A model generated the notes under the pieces. It was not told where the DNA came from. It ran no database searches and saw only the letters and a program-made list of their open reading frames with translations. From Verrucomicrobiia bacterium (GTDB lineage Bacteria; Verrucomicrobiota; Verrucomicrobiia; Limisphaerales; DSYF01), in NCBI GenBank assembly GCA_035765895.1, contig DASTWL010000009.1:1-57685 (forward strand): a DNA stretch of 57,685 nt, given 5' to 3'. The first letter of the stretch is position 1, and each line of letters opens with the position of its first letter. The translations under genes and the position numbers were made by a program. Of this stretch, positions 8,027 through 17,968 are shown piece by piece.

Positions 8027-11000
8027 ATGGAAGCCACAAAACACTGTCCAAATTGCGGGAAGCCGCTGCCTGCCAGCGCGCTCGAAGGTCTCTGTCCGGC
8101 TTGCATGTTGCAGGTGGGGGTGGCCGCCGATTCCGTGCCGGAACCTGTTGTGGGCCCGGGCGGAACCGTGATTATGTCTTTGCCGGACGCTCCCCCGTTG
8201 CCGGCCCCTGAAATCGGCGGGCCATTCGGCCGTTACCAAATCATCCGTCGGCTGGGCCATGGTGGCATGGGGGTGGTGTATGAGGCGGAGGAGTCTGATT
8301 CCGGCCGGCGGGTCGCGCTCAAGGTGATTAATCAAAAACTCAGCTCACCTGCCGATCGCGCCCGTTTTCTCCGGGAAGGGCGATTGGCCGCCTCCATCAA
8401 CCACCCGAATTGCGTTTACGTTTTCGGCACGGAGGAGATTAAAAACACTCCGGTCATCGCGATGGAATTCGTTTCCGGTGGCACGCTCCAGCAACGGCTT
8501 TCCCGGGAAGGTCCGTTCCCGGTGGGGCGCGCGGTGGACGCCATCCTGCAGGTGATTGAGGGGCTTGAGGCGGCGCAGGCGGTCGGGATTCTTCATCGGG
8601 ACATCAAGCCCTCGAACTGTTTTGAGGATGCCAGTGGCAATGTGAAGATCGGCGATTTCGGCCTCTCCATTTCCACGTTGCCGCGGGAGGAAAGCAACCT
8701 TACTGACTCAGGTGCCGTCGTGGGCACGCCGGCGTTCGCTTCGCCGGAGCAGCTTCGTGGCGAGGATTTCAGTGCGCGTTCAGACATGTATGCGGTCGGG
8801 GTGACGCTATTCTATTTGCTCACCGGCAAGCTGCCCTTTGAGGGAAATACGATGCCGCAGCTCGTCGCCAACACTCTCGAGAAACGCCCGCCTTCACCCC
8901 GCGAATATCGCCCGGAAATTCCCATTGGGCTGGCGCGCGTGATTCTTCGTTGTCTCGATAAACACCCCACGGAACGATTCAAAAACTACGCGGAACTGCG
9001 TTTGGCGCTGGAACCCTTCTCCTCCGCGGCGCCCACTGCGGCGACGTTGGGCCTCCGATTTCTCGCGGGAGTTGCCGACTTGCTGTTGCTCAGCCTGCTC
9101 GGCATGACCGTGACCCTGCTGGGGTTTGGCGGGCCGTTTGAAATGATGAATCGATTTCTCAAATCGCCATCGAACATCTGGTGGTTCATGATCCCCTGGC
9201 TCATTTTCATGCTGCTTTACTATGCAATTTGCGAATCGCGCTGGGGCGCCACGGCCGGGAAGGCGCTATGCAGGTTGCGCGTGTTGCAGTCGGATCGTAA
9301 TTATCCCGGGTTTGGCCGGGCGTTGTTGCGGGCGGTAATCTACACCTTGGTGCCGTTGCTGCCGTATTGGATCATTGCGGGTGCGGATCCGATGAAGTTC
9401 GCCACCCCTTCTGCCGGAACTTACCTGTTGAGCTTGTCCTATTACGTGCTCTTGGGGCTGCTGTTCTCCAGCGCCCGGCGGCGCAATGGTTTTGCCGCGG
9501 TGCAGGATCTCGTGACCGGGACGCGCGTCGTCTCGCGAACCGCACTGGAGCAGCGGCAATCCTTGGCGGTCAGTGACCTGCAGCCCGCAGGTCTGGAAAC
9601 TTATCCTACCGTGGGGCCCTTCCATGTGCTCCAGTCGCTGGGCAGGGGCGGCGAGGTTGAATGGATCGAAGGATACGATCTGCGCTTGTTGCGCCGTGTG
9701 CTAATTCGGCGGGTTCCGGCGGGCACACCGCCTTTGCCGGCAGCGCTTCGTCACATTTCGCGCGTGGGGCGGTTGCGCTGGCTGGCCGGGCGTCGTGATG
9801 GCGAGGAGAATTGGGACGCCTTCGAGGGCGTTGGAGGGCAGGCGCTCTTGAATCTGGTCGATCAACCGCAACCATGGAGCCGGGTCAGATTCTGGTTGCA
9901 TGATGTGGCCGAAGAATTGGGCGCGGCAGAGAAGGATGGCACCTTGCCGCCGGTGCTGGCCTTGGATCGGGTGTGGATCACCCGCGAAGGACGGGCGAAG
10001 TTGCTCGACTTCCCGGCTCCCGGAGCGTCACCGGCTGCGGAGAACGTGGGCCGGCCACGGCCGCCGATTGCCGAACCCGCCTCGGACACGCGGACATTCA
10101 TCAATCAAATCGCGGCCATTGCGCTGGGCGGCTGGGCTGCAAAGGATCAGCCAGCTGCCATGGTATCGGCTCACATTCCACTGCATGTGCGGCGGTTCCT
10201 GGAAACCCTGCCCAGTCTGGCTGGCGCGGATGCCATTGCGGTGACGCTTGGACCGCTCCTGCGACGGGTGGCTGAAGTTACGCGATTGCGGCGGGCGCTG
10301 ATCGTCGCCGGGTGTGTTGCATTCCCATTGCTTTCCAGCCTGGCCGGCATTTGGGGGATGTCGATGATGCAAAACTGGCAGCGGCAGAATCCCGATCTGA
10401 TGGCCTTGATCCAGGTATTGAACACTTGGCGCGCAAAGAACATGCCCTTTGTGCCGAAGAACCAGCTCCCGAGTGACCAGCTCACCGGCATTTATATTGC
10501 CGCGCACTTTGGCGGAGTCATCACCAATGAACCCGTTTGGTCGGGCGCACTGGCCCGGATGCTCATCCAACCGGACGCCCGCGAGTTCGCCGAGAAGAGC
10601 CTGCAGCAATACGCCTCACCCCCGGCCGAGGAACTCCAGGAGGCGGAAAGACGCTTTGAACCGATCGTCAAGCAGGTCCAACCCGGCGGCATGCCATCGC
10701 CGGTCCTGATGTCGCCGTTCGTCCTCTGGATAACCCTGCTGATCTATGTTGCGGTTCCGGCGGTCATCGCGGCGCTGCTATTCCGTGGTGGCTTGGTGCT
10801 GCTGGCGTTGGGTGTGACGTATGTGCGTGTGGACGGGCGCAAGGCTTCACGCGGCCGCGTGTTCTGGCGCAGTGTCGTGGCGTGGAGCCCCGTGGTTGGG
10901 GCGGTGATGCTCGGCGGGGCGGCGATGACAATGAAATCCTTGCCGCTCACCTGGCTGGTCTTGGTGTTGATGATTGGTTTGACCGTCTGTTCACTGTTGT

Positions 11001-11056
11001 TGCCTGGTCGCGGTTTGCAGGATCGTCTGGCGGGAACGTGGCCGGTGCCGCGCTGA
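8027..11056 (+). CDS. Ser/Thr protein kinase with RDD membrane domain and a degenerate second kinase domain
   Basis: The 1009-residue protein starts with a zinc ribbon (C7, C10, C23, C26). A complete kinase domain follows at about residues 70-332: glycine loop GHGGMG 77-82, K99, HRD 190-192, DFG 210-212 and 'GTPAFASPEQ'. Residues 341-515 match an RDD membrane domain ('GLRFLAGVADLLLLSLLG', 'GKALCRLRVL', 'GFAAVQDLVTGTRVV'). At about 528-760 a second kinase-like fold appears: it opens with a glycine-loop relic ('LQSLGRGGEVEWIEG') and later has 'VWITREGRAKLLDFPAPG', where HRD is missing and DFG has become DFP, so it is presumably a pseudokinase. Membrane segments follow near 760-785 and 895-1000. 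The ATG has a strong ribosome site (GGAAGAAGAG). It lies immediately downstream of an ECF sigma gene. Confidence 0.85.
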   Translation: MEATKHCPNCGKPLPASALEGLCPACMLQVGVAADSVPEPVVGPGGTVIMSLPDAPPLPAPEIGGPFGRYQIIRRLGHGGMGVVYEAEESDSGRRVALKVINQKLSSPADRARFLREGRLAASINHPNCVYVFGTEEIKNTPVIAMEFVSGGTLQQRLSREGPFPVGRAVDAILQVIEGLEAAQAVGILHRDIKPSNCFEDASGNVKIGDFGLSISTLPREESNLTDSGAVVGTPAFASPEQLRGEDFSARSDMYAVGVTLFYLLTGKLPFEGNTMPQLVANTLEKRPPSPREYRPEIPIGLARVILRCLDKHPTERFKNYAELRLALEPFSSAAPTAATLGLRFLAGVADLLLLSLLGMTVTLLGFGGPFEMMNRFLKSPSNIWWFMIPWLIFMLLYYAICESRWGATAGKALCRLRVLQSDRNYPGFGRALLRAVIYTLVPLLPYWIIAGADPMKFATPSAGTYLLSLSYYVLLGLLFSSARRRNGFAAVQDLVTGTRVVSRTALEQRQSLAVSDLQPAGLETYPTVGPFHVLQSLGRGGEVEWIEGYDLRLLRRVLIRRVPAGTPPLPAALRHISRVGRLRWLAGRRDGEENWDAFEGVGGQALLNLVDQPQPWSRVRFWLHDVAEELGAAEKDGTLPPVLALDRVWITREGRAKLLDFPAPGASPAAENVGRPRPPIAEPASDTRTFINQIAAIALGGWAAKDQPAAMVSAHIPLHVRRFLETLPSLAGADAIAVTLGPLLRRVAEVTRLRRALIVAGCVAFPLLSSLAGIWGMSMMQNWQRQNPDLMALIQVLNTWRAKNMPFVPKNQLPSDQLTGIYIAAHFGGVITNEPVWSGALARMLIQPDAREFAEKSLQQYASPPAEELQEAERRFEPIVKQVQPGGMPSPVLMSPFVLWITLLIYVAVPAVIAALLFRGGLVLLALGVTYVRVDGRKASRGRVFWRSVVAWSPVVGAVMLGGAAMTMKSLPLTWLVLVLMIGLTVCSLLLPGRGLQDRLAGTWPVPR

Positions 11057-11113: not shown

Positions 11114-11140
11114 GGTAACGAACGGCCCGAATTGCTTCTG
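11114..11140 (+). promoter_or_regulatory. ECF-type promoter candidate upstream of the second sigma factor
   Basis: GGTAAC at 11114-11119 and CTTCTG at 11135-11140 are separated by 15 bases; 22 of 27 positions match the element at 2468-2494. Because the -10-like part reaches 11140, a GTG start there would be untranscribed or leaderless, which argues for a start further downstream. Confidence 0.6.
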
Positions 11141-11169
11141 TGGCTTGTTGCGGCAGCACGCGACGAGGT

Positions 11170-11913
11170 TTGAGCACCGAAAACCGCACCAACTTGTCAG
11201 CGCCGGGCGACATCTTCGCCACGACGCGCTGGACGGTCGTGCTTGCGGCGGGGCGGGGGCGCACACCGCAGGCGGACCGCGCCCTGGAGGAGTTGTGCCG
11301 CGCCTACTGGTTTCCGTTGTATGCCTACGTGCGGCGCCGCGGTTATGCCAGGGAGGATGCGGAAGATTCCGTGCAGGCCTTTTTCGCGCGGTTCCTGGCC
11401 AGGAATTACCTCGAAGGCCTCAGTGCGGAGCGCGGACGATTTCGCGCGTTCCTGCTCGCGTCGCTGAAAAACTTTCTCGCCAACGAATGGAAAAAGTCCC
11501 GGCGCCTCAAGCGCGGCGGCGGCGAAACGGTGCTTTCGCTCGATTGGGAAACGGCGGACACCAAGTTCCAGGTGGCGGCCACCAATGAGCCGGGGCCGGA
11601 CCAGGCGTTCGACCGCGAATGGGCGGTGGCGCTGCTGGCCCAGGTGATTGAGCGGCTGCGCGCCGAGTGTGTGGCGGAGGGCCGGGGAGGCCAGTTCGAG
11701 CAGCTCAAGGTGTTTCTCACCGCCGGCAAGGGCGCCGTGCCGCACGCCGCGGCCGCGAAGGCGCTCGGCCTGGAGGAAGGCGCGGTGCGCGTGGCGGTGC
11801 ACCGCCTGCGCAAGCGCTACCGCGAACTGCTGCGCGACGAGATTGCCCACACGCTCGCGGATCCGGCCCAGGTTGATGAGGAAATGCGCGCCCTGTTCAG
11901 CGCCTTTGCGTGA
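11170..11913 (+). CDS. ECF-type RNA polymerase sigma factor, second paralogue
   Basis: The frame is open from a GTG at 11140, but the promoter-like element ends there. The TTG at 11170 gives 'STENRTNLSAPGDIFATT', matching the N-terminal length of the paralogue at 7226. No ATG exists in this stretch and no good ribosome site was found, so the start is uncertain. Region 2 covers 'FPLYAYVRRRGYAREDAED' and 'FFARFLARNYL', and region 4 'LEEGAVRVAVHRLRKRYREL'. The gene follows the kinase at 8027-11056 after a short gap and is closed by a terminator. A probable self-recognised promoter suggests positive autoregulation (inference). Confidence 0.85.
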   Translation: MSTENRTNLSAPGDIFATTRWTVVLAAGRGRTPQADRALEELCRAYWFPLYAYVRRRGYAREDAEDSVQAFFARFLARNYLEGLSAERGRFRAFLLASLKNFLANEWKKSRRLKRGGGETVLSLDWETADTKFQVAATNEPGPDQAFDREWAVALLAQVIERLRAECVAEGRGGQFEQLKVFLTAGKGAVPHAAAAKALGLEEGAVRVAVHRLRKRYRELLRDEIAHTLADPAQVDEEMRALFSAFA

Positions 11914-13638: not shown

Positions 13639-13757
13639 TTTAACCACGGATGAACACCGATGCACACGGACCTCAGTTCCCCTCCAGGGAGGGGTCAGGG
13701 GTGGGTTGGCCGCGAAAGAACTCAAAGAACGCAAAGAGCCTCTGACGCTAATTTCGC
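13639..13757. repeat. Left inverted repeat, segment A (119 bp)
   Basis: Begins with 'TTTAACCACGGATGAACACC', continues through an inner hairpin around CCCCTCC-AGGGAGGGG and a CAAAGAACGC unit, and ends 'GACGCTAATTTCGC'. The reverse complement of 17851-17968 matches it almost base for base, with roughly ten differences. Confidence 0.85.
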
Positions 13758-13802
13758 CAATTGACGCGGAGCCGAATTGAAAGCCCTGAAGGGGCAACGG
13801 AA

Positions 13803-13912: not shown

Positions 13913-14356
13913 TTAACCAGCAAACAATTTGCTTGGAAATTCGCTCTGACCAATTTTGAAATCCAGCTCTCCGTTTGAACCTTTGACAGAATACATCTCG
14001 CGCTTGTGACGCGCGGCGCTGATCCATTCGATTGGGTCGTGTAGGTTGTCGAGGATTTGTTTTAACTCGTCATAGCTCAAGCAAACGACGCCGTCGTCAC
14101 TACAAACCAGGACGAGGAAAACTTTCTCGAATTGAGCTTTCAACAAATCAATCTCCTGCTGGTGCTCCGTCATGAACGTGAAGCGCCACGGGGTCATCCG
14201 CTTCGATGAATACTTGATGAAAATTCCAACCGTGTCGTTCACAACATAGGAGGAGTTGGAAGCGGATTGGAACGGGCGAATGGAAAGTGGGCGTTGGGTC
14301 GCGTGGAGAATCCGCGCAAACACAAGGCCGTGATAAAATTCAAAGTCCCGGATCAT
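13913..14356 (-). CDS. Small protein of unknown function coupled to the Z1 helicase
   Basis: The protein has 147 residues and I do not recognise the family. The start codon overlaps the stop of the Z1 gene by four bases (ATGA), so the two are very probably translated together. Visible features are an N-terminal helix, a strand pair around 'VVNDTVGIFIKYSSKR' and 'PWRFTF', a hydrophobic strand 'VFLVLVCSDDGVVCLS', and a charged C-terminal part. The layout of helix, strands with D and K residues, and a later strand is compatible with a small PD-(D/E)XK-like nuclease fold, and Z1 genes are known to travel with such nucleases. However, the canonical (D/E)XK triad is not clear. It has no signal peptide or membrane segment. 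Confidence 0.75.
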   Translation of the reverse strand: MIRDFEFYHGLVFARILHATQRPLSIRPFQSASNSSYVVNDTVGIFIKYSSKRMTPWRFTFMTEHQQEIDLLKAQFEKVFLVLVCSDDGVVCLSYDELKQILDNLHDPIEWISAARHKREMYSVKGSNGELDFKIGQSEFPSKLFAG

Positions 14357-16209
14357 TTTTTCCCCGTTTTCAGGAAACGAATGCTCCCTTCGTATTTGTA
14401 GAACACGCGGGCTTTTCCAGTTTCGTTGTAAAACACGTTGATGTGATGAATCGCGTCAGGATACTTCGTGACCTCCATCTGATTCTTACCAATGAAGCCC
14501 TTTGTGCGCGTGATGGTCGCCTTGTCCGTTTCTCCATCTTTGTCGGTGTAGCCCGCGATTGAGATTGGCGGATGAACCGCAACCGATTTGTCGCCAGCAG
14601 GGCAGAAACTTTCGATGTAATTGATCAGATAGGCCGGCAAACAGCTTTTCCCGAGCAGTTCAGCGAGTGCTTTAACTTTCTGGATTGGTTTGGCGCTCTG
14701 ATTGATTATTTCCGCAATGGTTTCCTTGTGTTTGTCAAAATCGAAAAGAGCAAAACTCATTTCACCTTTGTCCACCAAGACGTTCGCGTTGTCTATGCTC
14801 GCACTGGCGACGGCTGTGATGCGCTCGCCATCAAGCCAAACGGGAGATTGTTTGTTCAGTTTACGCGATTCGAGAGAGAGCCGGTGGAAGATGAAGCATT
14901 GTTGCCAGTCGAGATAAAGATGCTTCGGAATCGTGAGTTCAAAATAATTCAGGTAGTCGCCCCGCGAGCCAAACATCCGAGCACGTTGAATATATGTGTC
15001 TTGCTGGAGTTTGTGCTTCACATCCCGCGTGAAGAACATGGAGATCAAATTGTTGAACGTTACTCCACGCGACACGATGTTGCCGCCAATGACAACGGTG
15101 AATGGAGCGGTCGGGTCGGTGGCGGTTCGATTTTCAGCGGTGTTGACTTCCTTGTCGCTGTTCATCACCACGATGTTATTTCTGTCGCGATTGGAGATGA
15201 CGTATTTGGTGAGGTCGTCCGCGTGGCTTGAATAACGCGCGTTGGCGATTTCCCAAATTCGCTTAAAATACCCGGCGTGATTCGTGTTCTTTTCGTCCTT
15301 TAGCGCCTCGAAGATTTTGACAATGTTTTTGTAGTCAACCGAATGGTCTGCCTTTTTCCCGCTCGTATGGATCAGGATCGAATAGTTTTTCTCGGCGTCG
15401 TTGATAATCTCATTCAGATATGCAGCGTTGACCATGAAGCTGAACAGCGCTTCCCGCAAATACTTTGGATCGTCGCCTGCATCTGGCAGGAACGTCAGCC
15501 GATAGGGCAGGTTCTCGGTCGAAACCGGAAAGAATAAATCCTGACCGGTGTAGTTCGAGTGGGGCGGAAAGTCTATCCAGTGTTCATTTTGGTTTTGGTG
15601 CGTCTTGTTCAGATCAAGACGGGCGGGCGTAGCGGTGACGCCGATATAAGTGCCTTGCTCGCCAATCAGTTCGCCAGTCAAAGCATTGATTTTGCTTTTC
15701 TCGTTCTGGTTCACCTTGGTATTCGGCGTGGCATAATCAGCCTCGTCATCAATGACGACACGGTTTGGGTGGGCTTCGATTTTCTCCAACAGTTTTTGCA
15801 GGTCGCTGGAATTCTTCTTGCAGAATATCACCCACTGGTGGTCTCCGATGGCAACTTCAGGCGGCAGTATTTCGCTAAACTTCTTCGGCAGCGGCGCCAG
15901 ACCAGACCGCTGAAAGCGCTCCAAGTTCTGCCCGAGCAATTGAACGCTGTCATTGAGCAATACGATCACCAGTCGGAAGCCCACGTCCAGCAGCTTTGCC
16001 GTCAAAGCAATCATCATCTCAGTCTTGCCGCTTTGGGGCTCGCCGTAGATGACAAACGACCTTTGCCCGGCTTGGATGTTCGTCACGGCGTTCTCAACTA
16101 CACCTTTGATGCGCTCCACTTCTTGGCCAGACGCAACCAGCTTTGCCAAGCGCCGCTCGTATCGATTGTCGTTCGTTGTTTCCTTCTTCAGTTCGTTGAG
16201 ATTGAACAT
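14353..16209 (-). CDS. Z1-domain DEAD-like helicase/ATPase
   Basis: The 618-residue protein has Walker A GEPQSGKT at 56-63, Walker B/DEAD 'VVIDDEADYA' at 151-160 and motif III 'GVTATPARL' at 190-198. The Z1 signature 'IGGNIVSRGVTF' lies at 374-385, followed by 'QRARMFGSR' (408-416), which holds the likely arginine finger. Z1 proteins are a branch of superfamily 2 helicases found in restriction-modification-like and other DNA-targeting defence operons, where they are thought to move on DNA and cooperate with a nuclease. The C-terminal 200 residues have no domain I recognise. It is divergent from the methyltransferase gene, with only 36 bases between the starts. The region is AT-richer than its surroundings, suggesting transfer. 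Confidence 0.88.
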   Translation of the reverse strand: MFNLNELKKETTNDNRYERRLAKLVASGQEVERIKGVVENAVTNIQAGQRSFVIYGEPQSGKTEMMIALTAKLLDVGFRLVIVLLNDSVQLLGQNLERFQRSGLAPLPKKFSEILPPEVAIGDHQWVIFCKKNSSDLQKLLEKIEAHPNRVVIDDEADYATPNTKVNQNEKSKINALTGELIGEQGTYIGVTATPARLDLNKTHQNQNEHWIDFPPHSNYTGQDLFFPVSTENLPYRLTFLPDAGDDPKYLREALFSFMVNAAYLNEIINDAEKNYSILIHTSGKKADHSVDYKNIVKIFEALKDEKNTNHAGYFKRIWEIANARYSSHADDLTKYVISNRDRNNIVVMNSDKEVNTAENRTATDPTAPFTVVIGGNIVSRGVTFNNLISMFFTRDVKHKLQQDTYIQRARMFGSRGDYLNYFELTIPKHLYLDWQQCFIFHRLSLESRKLNKQSPVWLDGERITAVASASIDNANVLVDKGEMSFALFDFDKHKETIAEIINQSAKPIQKVKALAELLGKSCLPAYLINYIESFCPAGDKSVAVHPPISIAGYTDKDGETDKATITRTKGFIGKNQMEVTKYPDAIHHINVFYNETGKARVFYKYEGSIRFLKTGKK

Positions 16210-16245
16210 AGACAGTTACCTGTTGGACGGCCAAACGCTACTTGA

Positions 16246-17529
16246 TTGGTGGAGAGGATTGGCAATTTCCGCGTGCATGTAAAATTGAAACTTGCTGCGG
16301 AAAAGCTCGACTGCCTTAATGCGCTGGAGATGATCGGACTTCGACCAATTCACCCTTTCCCAGCGCGAATGTCTCCGGAAATTGTGTGGGATGAATTACC
16401 AGCGCCTCCCAATCGCGTTCGGGTGCTCGATCCGATGATGGGTTCAGGGACGACACTCGTTGCAGCGCGGATGCGCGGCCACGAGGCGATTGGCTTCGAC
16501 CGTGACCCGCTCGCTGTTCTTATTGCAGGCGCTTGGGCTTCAGACGTGGACGTGATTTTTGCGCAAAGGAAAGCCGAAGAAGTTTTGAATCGCGCAAAAG
16601 AACGCGCCCGCGGGATCAAGCAGCGCGACGCTTACCCGCGTGGGGCGTCGGACGAGACAAAGGAATTTGTCCGCTACTGGTTCGATACGACAAATCGAAC
16701 GCAACTAGCGGCGTTGGCTGACAGCATTTCCGCCACTCACAATCCGCACATAAAACGACTGCTCTGGTGCGCGTTCTCGCGACTCATCATCACAAAACAG
16801 TCCGGCGTGTCGTTGGCAATGGATATTTCCCACAGTCGTCCGCACAAAACTCGCGATAAGGCACCCATCAATGCGTTTGACCATTTTGAGCGAGCGATGA
16901 GACAGATCACGAAAGCCGCTCCTTTTTCAGGCAGCGAACCCTCGCGCCCGCAGATTTCAGTAGAGAACGGAGATGCGAGACAGCTTCCGCTGGAGAACGA
17001 AAGTGTTGACGTGGTGGTCACGTCGCCGCCTTACCTAAACGCCATAGATTATCTTCGTGGGCACAAGTTCTCGCTGGTTTGGATGGGGCACGATGTGGCG
17101 GAAGTCCGCGAACTTCGCTCCACAAATGTCGGCGCTGAAGTTTCGGCTGAATCGTGCGACAACGACAAGGCGACCGAGACGATTATGCAACAGATGTGCG
17201 ATGGCGAGCTTCGAGGCCGAAGTCACGGGATGCTTCGCCGGTATGTGCGAGATTTGCGTAAATGCATGAGCGAAAATTTCCGCGTGCTGCGTCCGGGTGG
17301 TAAAGCCGTTTATGTGGTCGGTAATTGCAACCTCCGTGATGCGTATGTTGAAAACTCAGCGTGTGTGAATGCTCTTGCCGAGGAAGTGGGGTTTGATGTC
17401 CGCTCAACTCGCAAGCGTCCGCTTCCAGAGAACCGTCGATACCTTCCTCCACCAGGCAAGCGAGGCGCGGGCGCTGCGTTGCACAAACGTATGCGTGAAG
17501 AGGTGATTCTAACTCTGGTCAAAAATTGA
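16246..17529 (+). CDS. DNA methyltransferase (amino-methylating, TSPPY type)
   Basis: The frame gives up to 427 residues from a TTG at 16246; an in-frame ATG at 16330 (residue 29) precedes the conserved 'LRPIHPFPARM' and may be the true start. The AdoMet-binding motif 'LDPMMGSGTT' lies at about 61-70 and the catalytic 'TSPPY' at about 259-263 (followed by 'LNAIDYLRGHKFSLVW'). This order is permuted relative to beta-class enzymes. Such motifs belong to N6-adenine or N4-cytosine methyltransferases. No target-recognition domain is obvious beyond the central region (about 90-240). Divergent orientation from the Z1 gene with a 36-base gap suggests a modification partner that protects host DNA (inference). 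It is AT-richer than its flanks. Confidence 0.88.
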   Translation: MVERIGNFRVHVKLKLAAEKLDCLNALEMIGLRPIHPFPARMSPEIVWDELPAPPNRVRVLDPMMGSGTTLVAARMRGHEAIGFDRDPLAVLIAGAWASDVDVIFAQRKAEEVLNRAKERARGIKQRDAYPRGASDETKEFVRYWFDTTNRTQLAALADSISATHNPHIKRLLWCAFSRLIITKQSGVSLAMDISHSRPHKTRDKAPINAFDHFERAMRQITKAAPFSGSEPSRPQISVENGDARQLPLENESVDVVVTSPPYLNAIDYLRGHKFSLVWMGHDVAEVRELRSTNVGAEVSAESCDNDKATETIMQQMCDGELRGRSHGMLRRYVRDLRKCMSENFRVLRPGGKAVYVVGNCNLRDAYVENSACVNALAEEVGFDVRSTRKRPLPENRRYLPPPGKRGAGAALHKRMREEVILTLVKN

Positions 17530-17721: not shown

Positions 17722-17850
17722 TGGACTCGCTTATTCCCATTCGCTCGGCCCTATGGGCCTTTGCTTTCAGCAAATTCCTTTCGCCGTTTCCCAAGCGACT
17801 CAAGTCCGTTGCTCCGTTGGGGCAAGTCAGTTGGGCCTTCGCGTGCATTC

Positions 17851-17968
17851 GCGAAATTCGCGTCAGAGGCTTTTTGGGTTCTTTGAGTTCTTTCGCGGCG
17901 ACCCACCCCTGACCCCTCCCTGGAGGGGAACTGAGGTCCGTGTGCATCCGGGTTCATCCGTGGTTAAA
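17851..17968. repeat. Right inverted repeat, segment A (118 bp)
   Basis: Inverted partner of 13639-13757. It ends 'CATCCGTGGTTAAA' at 17968. Between segments B and A (17722-17850) there is a further repeat-like stretch with 'CGTTGCTCCGTTGGGGCAAG'. No gene is supported in 17530-18010. Confidence 0.85.

Follow-up and report, generated by a model that had tools for sequence, protein, structure and literature searches.

How can a gene set act like a restriction–modification (R-M) system when its nuclease slot holds a restriction endonuclease (RE) fold that lacks the metal-binding acids? This mechanistic question is raised by a compact, widely transferred cassette of about 3.6 kb, found in the 57,685 nucleotides of Verrucomicrobiia contig DASTWL010000009.1 that we analysed (the window). 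Two of its genes lie on the reverse strand: one encodes a small protein of 147 a.a. (S; 13913–14356), identified from the ORF list, its predicted structure and an alignment of relatives, and the other a Z1-type SF2 dsDNA-translocase-like ATPase of 618 a.a. (Z1; 14353–16209), identified from Pfam, PADLOC, motifs and a structure model. Their reading frames share four bases (ATGA), and 67 alignable relatives mark the S reading frame as a real gene. The third gene, for a predicted amino DNA methyltransferase (M) of the HPFPARM/TSPPYLNAID family, is transcribed divergently on the forward strand; its longer ORF starts at a TTG (16246–17529, 427 a.a.), and the ATG at 16330 (16330–17529, 399 a.a.) is the likelier start because relatives of M begin close to the conserved HPFPARM motif. 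Both promoters presumably lie between Z1 and M (16210–16329). The first-pass annotation of this DNA had placed the three ORFs and the ATGA overlap correctly, and the divergence of Z1 and M also stands; its gap of 36 bases, however, widens to ~120 bases if M starts at ATG 16330. Because of its composition, its linkage and the precedent of CglI, an ATP-dependent R-M-like system is the most likely interpretation, and we consider it rather probable that the trio is a laterally transferred minimal cassette of this kind, in which M would protect and a complex of Z1 and S would act on unmodified DNA.

The motor is the Z1-type helicase that the first-pass annotation took it to be, as all of the motifs named there were found. 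The Z1 motifs are GEPQSGKT (56), DDEAD (154), TATPAR (192), GGNIVSRGVTF (375) and DTYIQRARMFG (404), and the protein matches the Pfam Z1 family (E=8e-23). Its motor model (residues ~13–450) resembles the dsDNA motors SNF2/CSB, UvrB and Type ISP restriction enzymes (e.g. LlaBIII, 4xqk: Z=16.5, 343 residues, 4.3 Å). The PADLOC Helicase_II model fits a CglI-type Z1 over its full length (692 bits), whereas it matches this Z1 over residues 48–437 only (1e-44, 151 bits), leaving the C-terminal third uncovered. In the family-specific C-terminal domain (~451–618), R568, H588 and R601 are invariant (48/48 each), and D473, E483, H589 and Y604 are conserved. These residues, together with the partial coverage by the CglI-type model, would be consistent with a nuclease hidden in this domain, S then serving as a specificity or loading subunit. 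But the domain has no family match, and the conserved residues could equally form a face on which S docks; we regard a hidden nuclease as unlikely.

A structure prediction had been proposed for the small protein. Modelled alone, S gave a pLDDT of 95.9, and its best structural matches are PD-(D/E)XK proteins: Hjc (Z=10.0; 115 residues, 2.9 Å), I-Ssp6803I (Z=9.6) and RecU (Z=8.5), with a top Foldseek E-value of 2.5e-3. The predicted S has the core of the PD-(D/E)XK fold and is Hjc/RecU-like; the D...(D/E)xK residues of an active nuclease of this type are absent. K48 is invariant (67/67 relatives), and no D or E occurs at positions 34–39, 43–50 or 52–62 in the 67 relatives, with a single one at position 51. 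By correspondence with Hjc in strand order (not in superposed coordinates), residues ~36 and ~46 would be the sites of the motif's D and E, respectively. In 91% of the relatives, position 4 carries an acidic residue. W57, G89 and G126 are fully invariant, like K48, and S50, R53, P56, R116 and Y122 are nearly so. S is best read as a catalytically degenerate RE-fold subunit, with the metal-binding acids missing in all 67 relatives.

S has no matching family model in Pfam, NCBIfam or PADLOC; as the family libraries that we searched do not contain it, it is probably overlooked by defence-annotation tools. The Pfam RecU model weakly matches four of 69 S proteins (best 0.0016; not traceable to individual members), and these matches carry no weight here; a viral fold library returned generic RecU/Hjc-like proteins only, none below E 0.001. 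No tblastn match to S was found in phage genomes, nor did an earlier viral scan with three S sequences find anything. Among solved structures, no significant homologue of Z1 or S was found by sequence. Kinship of S with the DUF4420-like 'PD-(D/E)XK motif protein' of other Z1 operons was rejected (hhalign probability of 1%, from an alignment of three sequences only).

BREX is thought to block phage replication without cutting. Z1 and S might likewise restrict by binding unmodified DNA and blocking phage replication, with S as an inactive nuclease fold retained for reading DNA; this would agree with the loss of the acids in every S protein beside four fully invariant residues, and with a minimal trio that holds no recognised nuclease gene, an absence that also counts against the R-M-like reading. 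We nevertheless consider non-cutting restriction somewhat unlikely, as the characterised Z1 systems, CglI and NgoAVII, cleave DNA (PMC4267653) and plausible nucleases fill the slot of S in related loci. Next to Z1, CglI-type loci encode a PLD nuclease and other loci a PD-(D/E)XK protein; S occupies the position of the PLD or PD-(D/E)XK nucleases of known Z1 operons (PMC2292703). In locus L111 (9857–11260), the S slot after Z1 is filled by an unrelated 467-a.a. protein without a Pfam match, and a different protein fills the slot in the same way in L121 (9886–11179, frameshifted). The slot protein of these two loci contains a stretch, GVDLIYL...FVQYK, that resembles the D..QxK of PD-(D/E)XK nucleases.

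M matches N6_N4_Mtase/UPF0020 (Pfam) and contains the TSPPY motif. It was described in the first-pass annotation as a permuted TSPPY-type methyltransferase, in agreement with what we see: motif I comes before motif IV, with DPMMGSGTT (62) ahead of TSPPYLNAIDY (259). Judged by its sequence, M is an amino DNA methyltransferase, which would act on either N4-cytosine or N6-adenine. The partners had also been said to differ from those of usual Z1 operons; this is true of the amino-methyltransferase but not of the small protein, which by its fold is still of PD-(D/E)XK type and sits in the usual nuclease slot.

The trio recurs far from its source. A four-sequence Z1 alignment, scanned against a single genome for each species, yielded 80 close Z1 relatives, from Bacteroidota, candidate-phyla-radiation bacteria, Proteobacteria (including Pelagibacter and SAR116), Prochlorococcus, Actinomycetota, Acidobacteriota and others, with top identities of 71–80% between phyla. 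S adjoins Z1 in 71 of the 80 (iterated HMM); among the others are a contig end, truncated or broken copies, L124 (where nothing recognisable as S separates Z1 from M) and the two loci with an exchanged slot. Where Z1 and S share a strand (68 pairs), their frames overlap in 58, and the overlap is ATGA in 33. A methyltransferase lies within 3 kb of Z1 in about 65 of the 80 loci (61 by homology and four more, L060, L083, L094 and L118, by Pfam or motif); 43 of these ∼65 enzymes belong to the HPFPARM/TSPPYLNAID family, as in the window, and the order and strand of M relative to Z1 and S vary. Distances between Z1 proteins follow those between S proteins (Mantel r=0.86 over 42 loci, 0.75 over 73 loci) more closely than those between M proteins (r=0.65, 42 loci). 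Because Z1 had served as the query for these loci, searches with S by itself were added. S is rare in four further taxonomic groups (no more than 3 of about 300–400 genomes in any of them), and all five S-seeded hits outside the centre genomes adjoin Z1 (G783, G826, G1250, G1135 and G1415, the last being the same locus as L053), as do two S hits on cyanobacterial plasmids (Calothrix and Nostoc). The first-pass annotation would have given up its proposal had the small protein and the methyltransferase never occurred with Z1 elsewhere, or had the trio already been named. The three genes do occur together in bacteria of different phyla, and we found no S model in Pfam, NCBIfam or PADLOC and no description of the M/Z1/S trio in the accessible literature on Z1 systems (a scope outside which subscription papers and REBASE lie).

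The trio can be compared with several known systems. Like CglI and NgoAVII, it is a mobile set of three genes in which a Z1-type SF2 motor stands next to a small effector gene and a DNA methyltransferase. However, R of CglI/NgoAVII combines PLD and B3 domains, whereas S is a 147-a.a. degenerate PD-(D/E)XK fold, and their M is a C5-cytosine enzyme, whereas M of the trio is a TSPPY amino-methyltransferase. The third operon class of Iyer 2008 joins a Z1-type helicase with the motif DThhQXuRhFG to an RE-fold gene with an E-D-ExK signature and a methylase, mostly for cytosine, with or without MORC/paraMORC (PMC2292703). The trio shares the helicase motif (the DTYIQRARMFG at 404) and the RE-fold gene next to Z1; it differs in that the D and E of D..ExK are absent from S, the methylase is an amino-methylase, and the window has no GHKL gene, although six relatives have a GHKL ATPase. 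Holliday-junction resolvases of the Hjc/RecU type share overall fold and size with S, but the metal-binding acids are missing from S, and S was always encountered next to a Z1 motor. MzaC of Mza is also a Z1 protein; the composition of Mza is different, and we rejected this label, as Z1 scores 34.9 against the MzaC cut-off of 1500 bits and no MutL-like gene is adjacent to it or present in the window. A BREX label was rejected as well, none of the three proteins matching PglZ or BrxC. The trio is thus a variant of the already characterised Z1-motor R-M class: the earlier suggestion of a candidate new defence system is supported in part, as regards a recurring trio without a family model for S, but not as regards a wholly new kind of system, as the class is known from CglI/NgoAVII and Iyer 2008. 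That the trio restricts phage is an inference in the first-pass annotation and here.

Cleavage by the R protein of CglI requires the ATP-hydrolysing Z1 motor (PMC4267653, PMC5737866). In an R-M-like cassette built on the same plan, M would methylate the recognition sites of the host (at N4-cytosine or N6-adenine), and Z1 and S would form a complex, with S docked on Z1 at its family-specific C-terminal domain. The PD-(D/E)XK scaffold of S, devoid of its metal-binding acids, would engage DNA at unmodified sites; Z1 would hydrolyse ATP and translocate on dsDNA, as H.CglI does, and unmodified phage or plasmid DNA would be cleaved or blocked. Any cutting site might be a non-canonical one in S, or lie in Z1, whose C-terminal domain is rich in conserved H, R and E.

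The genomic contexts of Z1 and S vary among the relatives. A gene for a BsaWI-type endonuclease and its methyltransferase lie beside the Z1+S pair in five loci, where the pair may be accessory; this arrangement counts against the R-M-like reading. In two of them (L083, 5797–7050; L094, 5803–7056), a 417-a.a. methyltransferase with an N-terminal Dev_Cell_Death domain (DCD, PF10539, E about 1e-18) is encoded upstream of the BsaWI-type endonuclease and Z1+S. The GHKL ATPase genes of the six loci mentioned above are near Z1, with or without response-regulator-like genes. In L049 the GHKL ATPase is followed by an ORF of 471 a.a. without a Pfam match, which may be the response-regulator-like partner described earlier (PMC8011034). 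It is conceivable that Z1 and S are everywhere a module that aids other R-M or GHKL systems by loading, clearing or regulation, rather than the effector, and the BsaWI-type and GHKL loci speak for it; M, Z1 and S alone, however, are the commonest arrangement, and we think such a role quite improbable. Other combinations are also seen: L144 (2002–5422) encodes S, Z1 (distant, 29% identity) and then an ORF with a C5-methyltransferase motif on one strand. On a Rhizobium gallicum plasmid (L005, 5258–8980), Z1 is flanked by genes for a Vsr-like endonuclease and a C5 methyltransferase, a further small arrangement of RE fold, Z1 and methyltransferase. Within the R-M-like reading, a bolder and more tentative proposal, which we hold possible but not probable, is a widespread defence whose 'endonuclease' subunit is a catalytically dead PD-(D/E)XK fold in every member: the ATP-driven Z1 motor would either exclude unmodified DNA without classical cutting or cut by a site of an undescribed type, and Z1+S would be an interchangeable effector module for amino-methyltransferase, C5-methyltransferase, BsaWI and GHKL systems. 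The mechanistic question posed at the outset is testable by genetics with few genes, as the two-gene Z1+S core recurs with varied modification and nuclease partners.

Some loci lack a linked methyltransferase. S and Z1 are divergent in such loci from marine bacteria (SAR11, SAR116 and Prochlorococcus) and related ones (L099, L106, L108, L112, L113, L116 and L117), and three of six marine genomes have an amino-methyltransferase elsewhere. Z1+S without a linked methyltransferase is also found in L019, L020 and the two cyanobacterial plasmid loci; these four and the marine loci L099, L108, L112, L116 and L117 count against the R-M-like reading. L112 has an HNH protein downstream. Directly upstream of Z1+S in L019 (874–5005) are CBASS-like genes (SAVED/HNH-like, nucleotidyltransferase, E2-like and JAB-like), so named from sequence only. 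Phage integrases, DISARM DrmD and Type I R genes are also seen near the relatives; like the CBASS-like genes of L019, they speak for the R-M-like reading.

In the window, the lower GC content and the flanking repeats remarked on in the first-pass annotation are both real. The gene block has a GC of 51.6%, against 62.0% for the window, and a third-position GC of 0.57–0.64, against 0.80–0.82 for flanking genes. The arms of an inverted repeat surround it (left, 13639–13771, forward, with weaker inner matches on to 13878; right, 17837–17968, reverse, with weaker inner matches from 17643). They are 92% identical overall, with sub-matches of 97% (13639–13706/17901–17968) and 85% (13699–13771/17837–17909), and are the sole full-length copies in the genome; a core of ~35 bp is dispersed some 25 times. 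Such inverted repeats could allow inversion of the segment. In a congener, the alignments of deoC and the aldehyde dehydrogenase gene are 28 bp apart with nothing between them, where the window has 4.95 kb (inserted segment 13637–18583). No second Z1 protein was found in the same genome, and a comparable one was lacking in each of 96 further genomes, almost all of which belong to this order. The suggested recent transfer is supported by the empty site of the congener and by the Z1 identities between phyla. Housekeeping or repair, with the RE-fold protein and the motor performing Holliday-junction-like processing, might be suspected from Hjc and RecU as the nearest folds to S and from the marine relatives, which lie among housekeeping genes without a methyltransferase. 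We consider it highly improbable, given the patchy distribution (1–3 of about 300–400 genomes per group), the high identity across phyla, the insertion described here, and the linkage to methyltransferases and to mobile or defence genes. Beside the insertion are a large Ser/Thr kinase-like ORF (8027–11056) and then a sigma-factor-like ORF (11140–11913).
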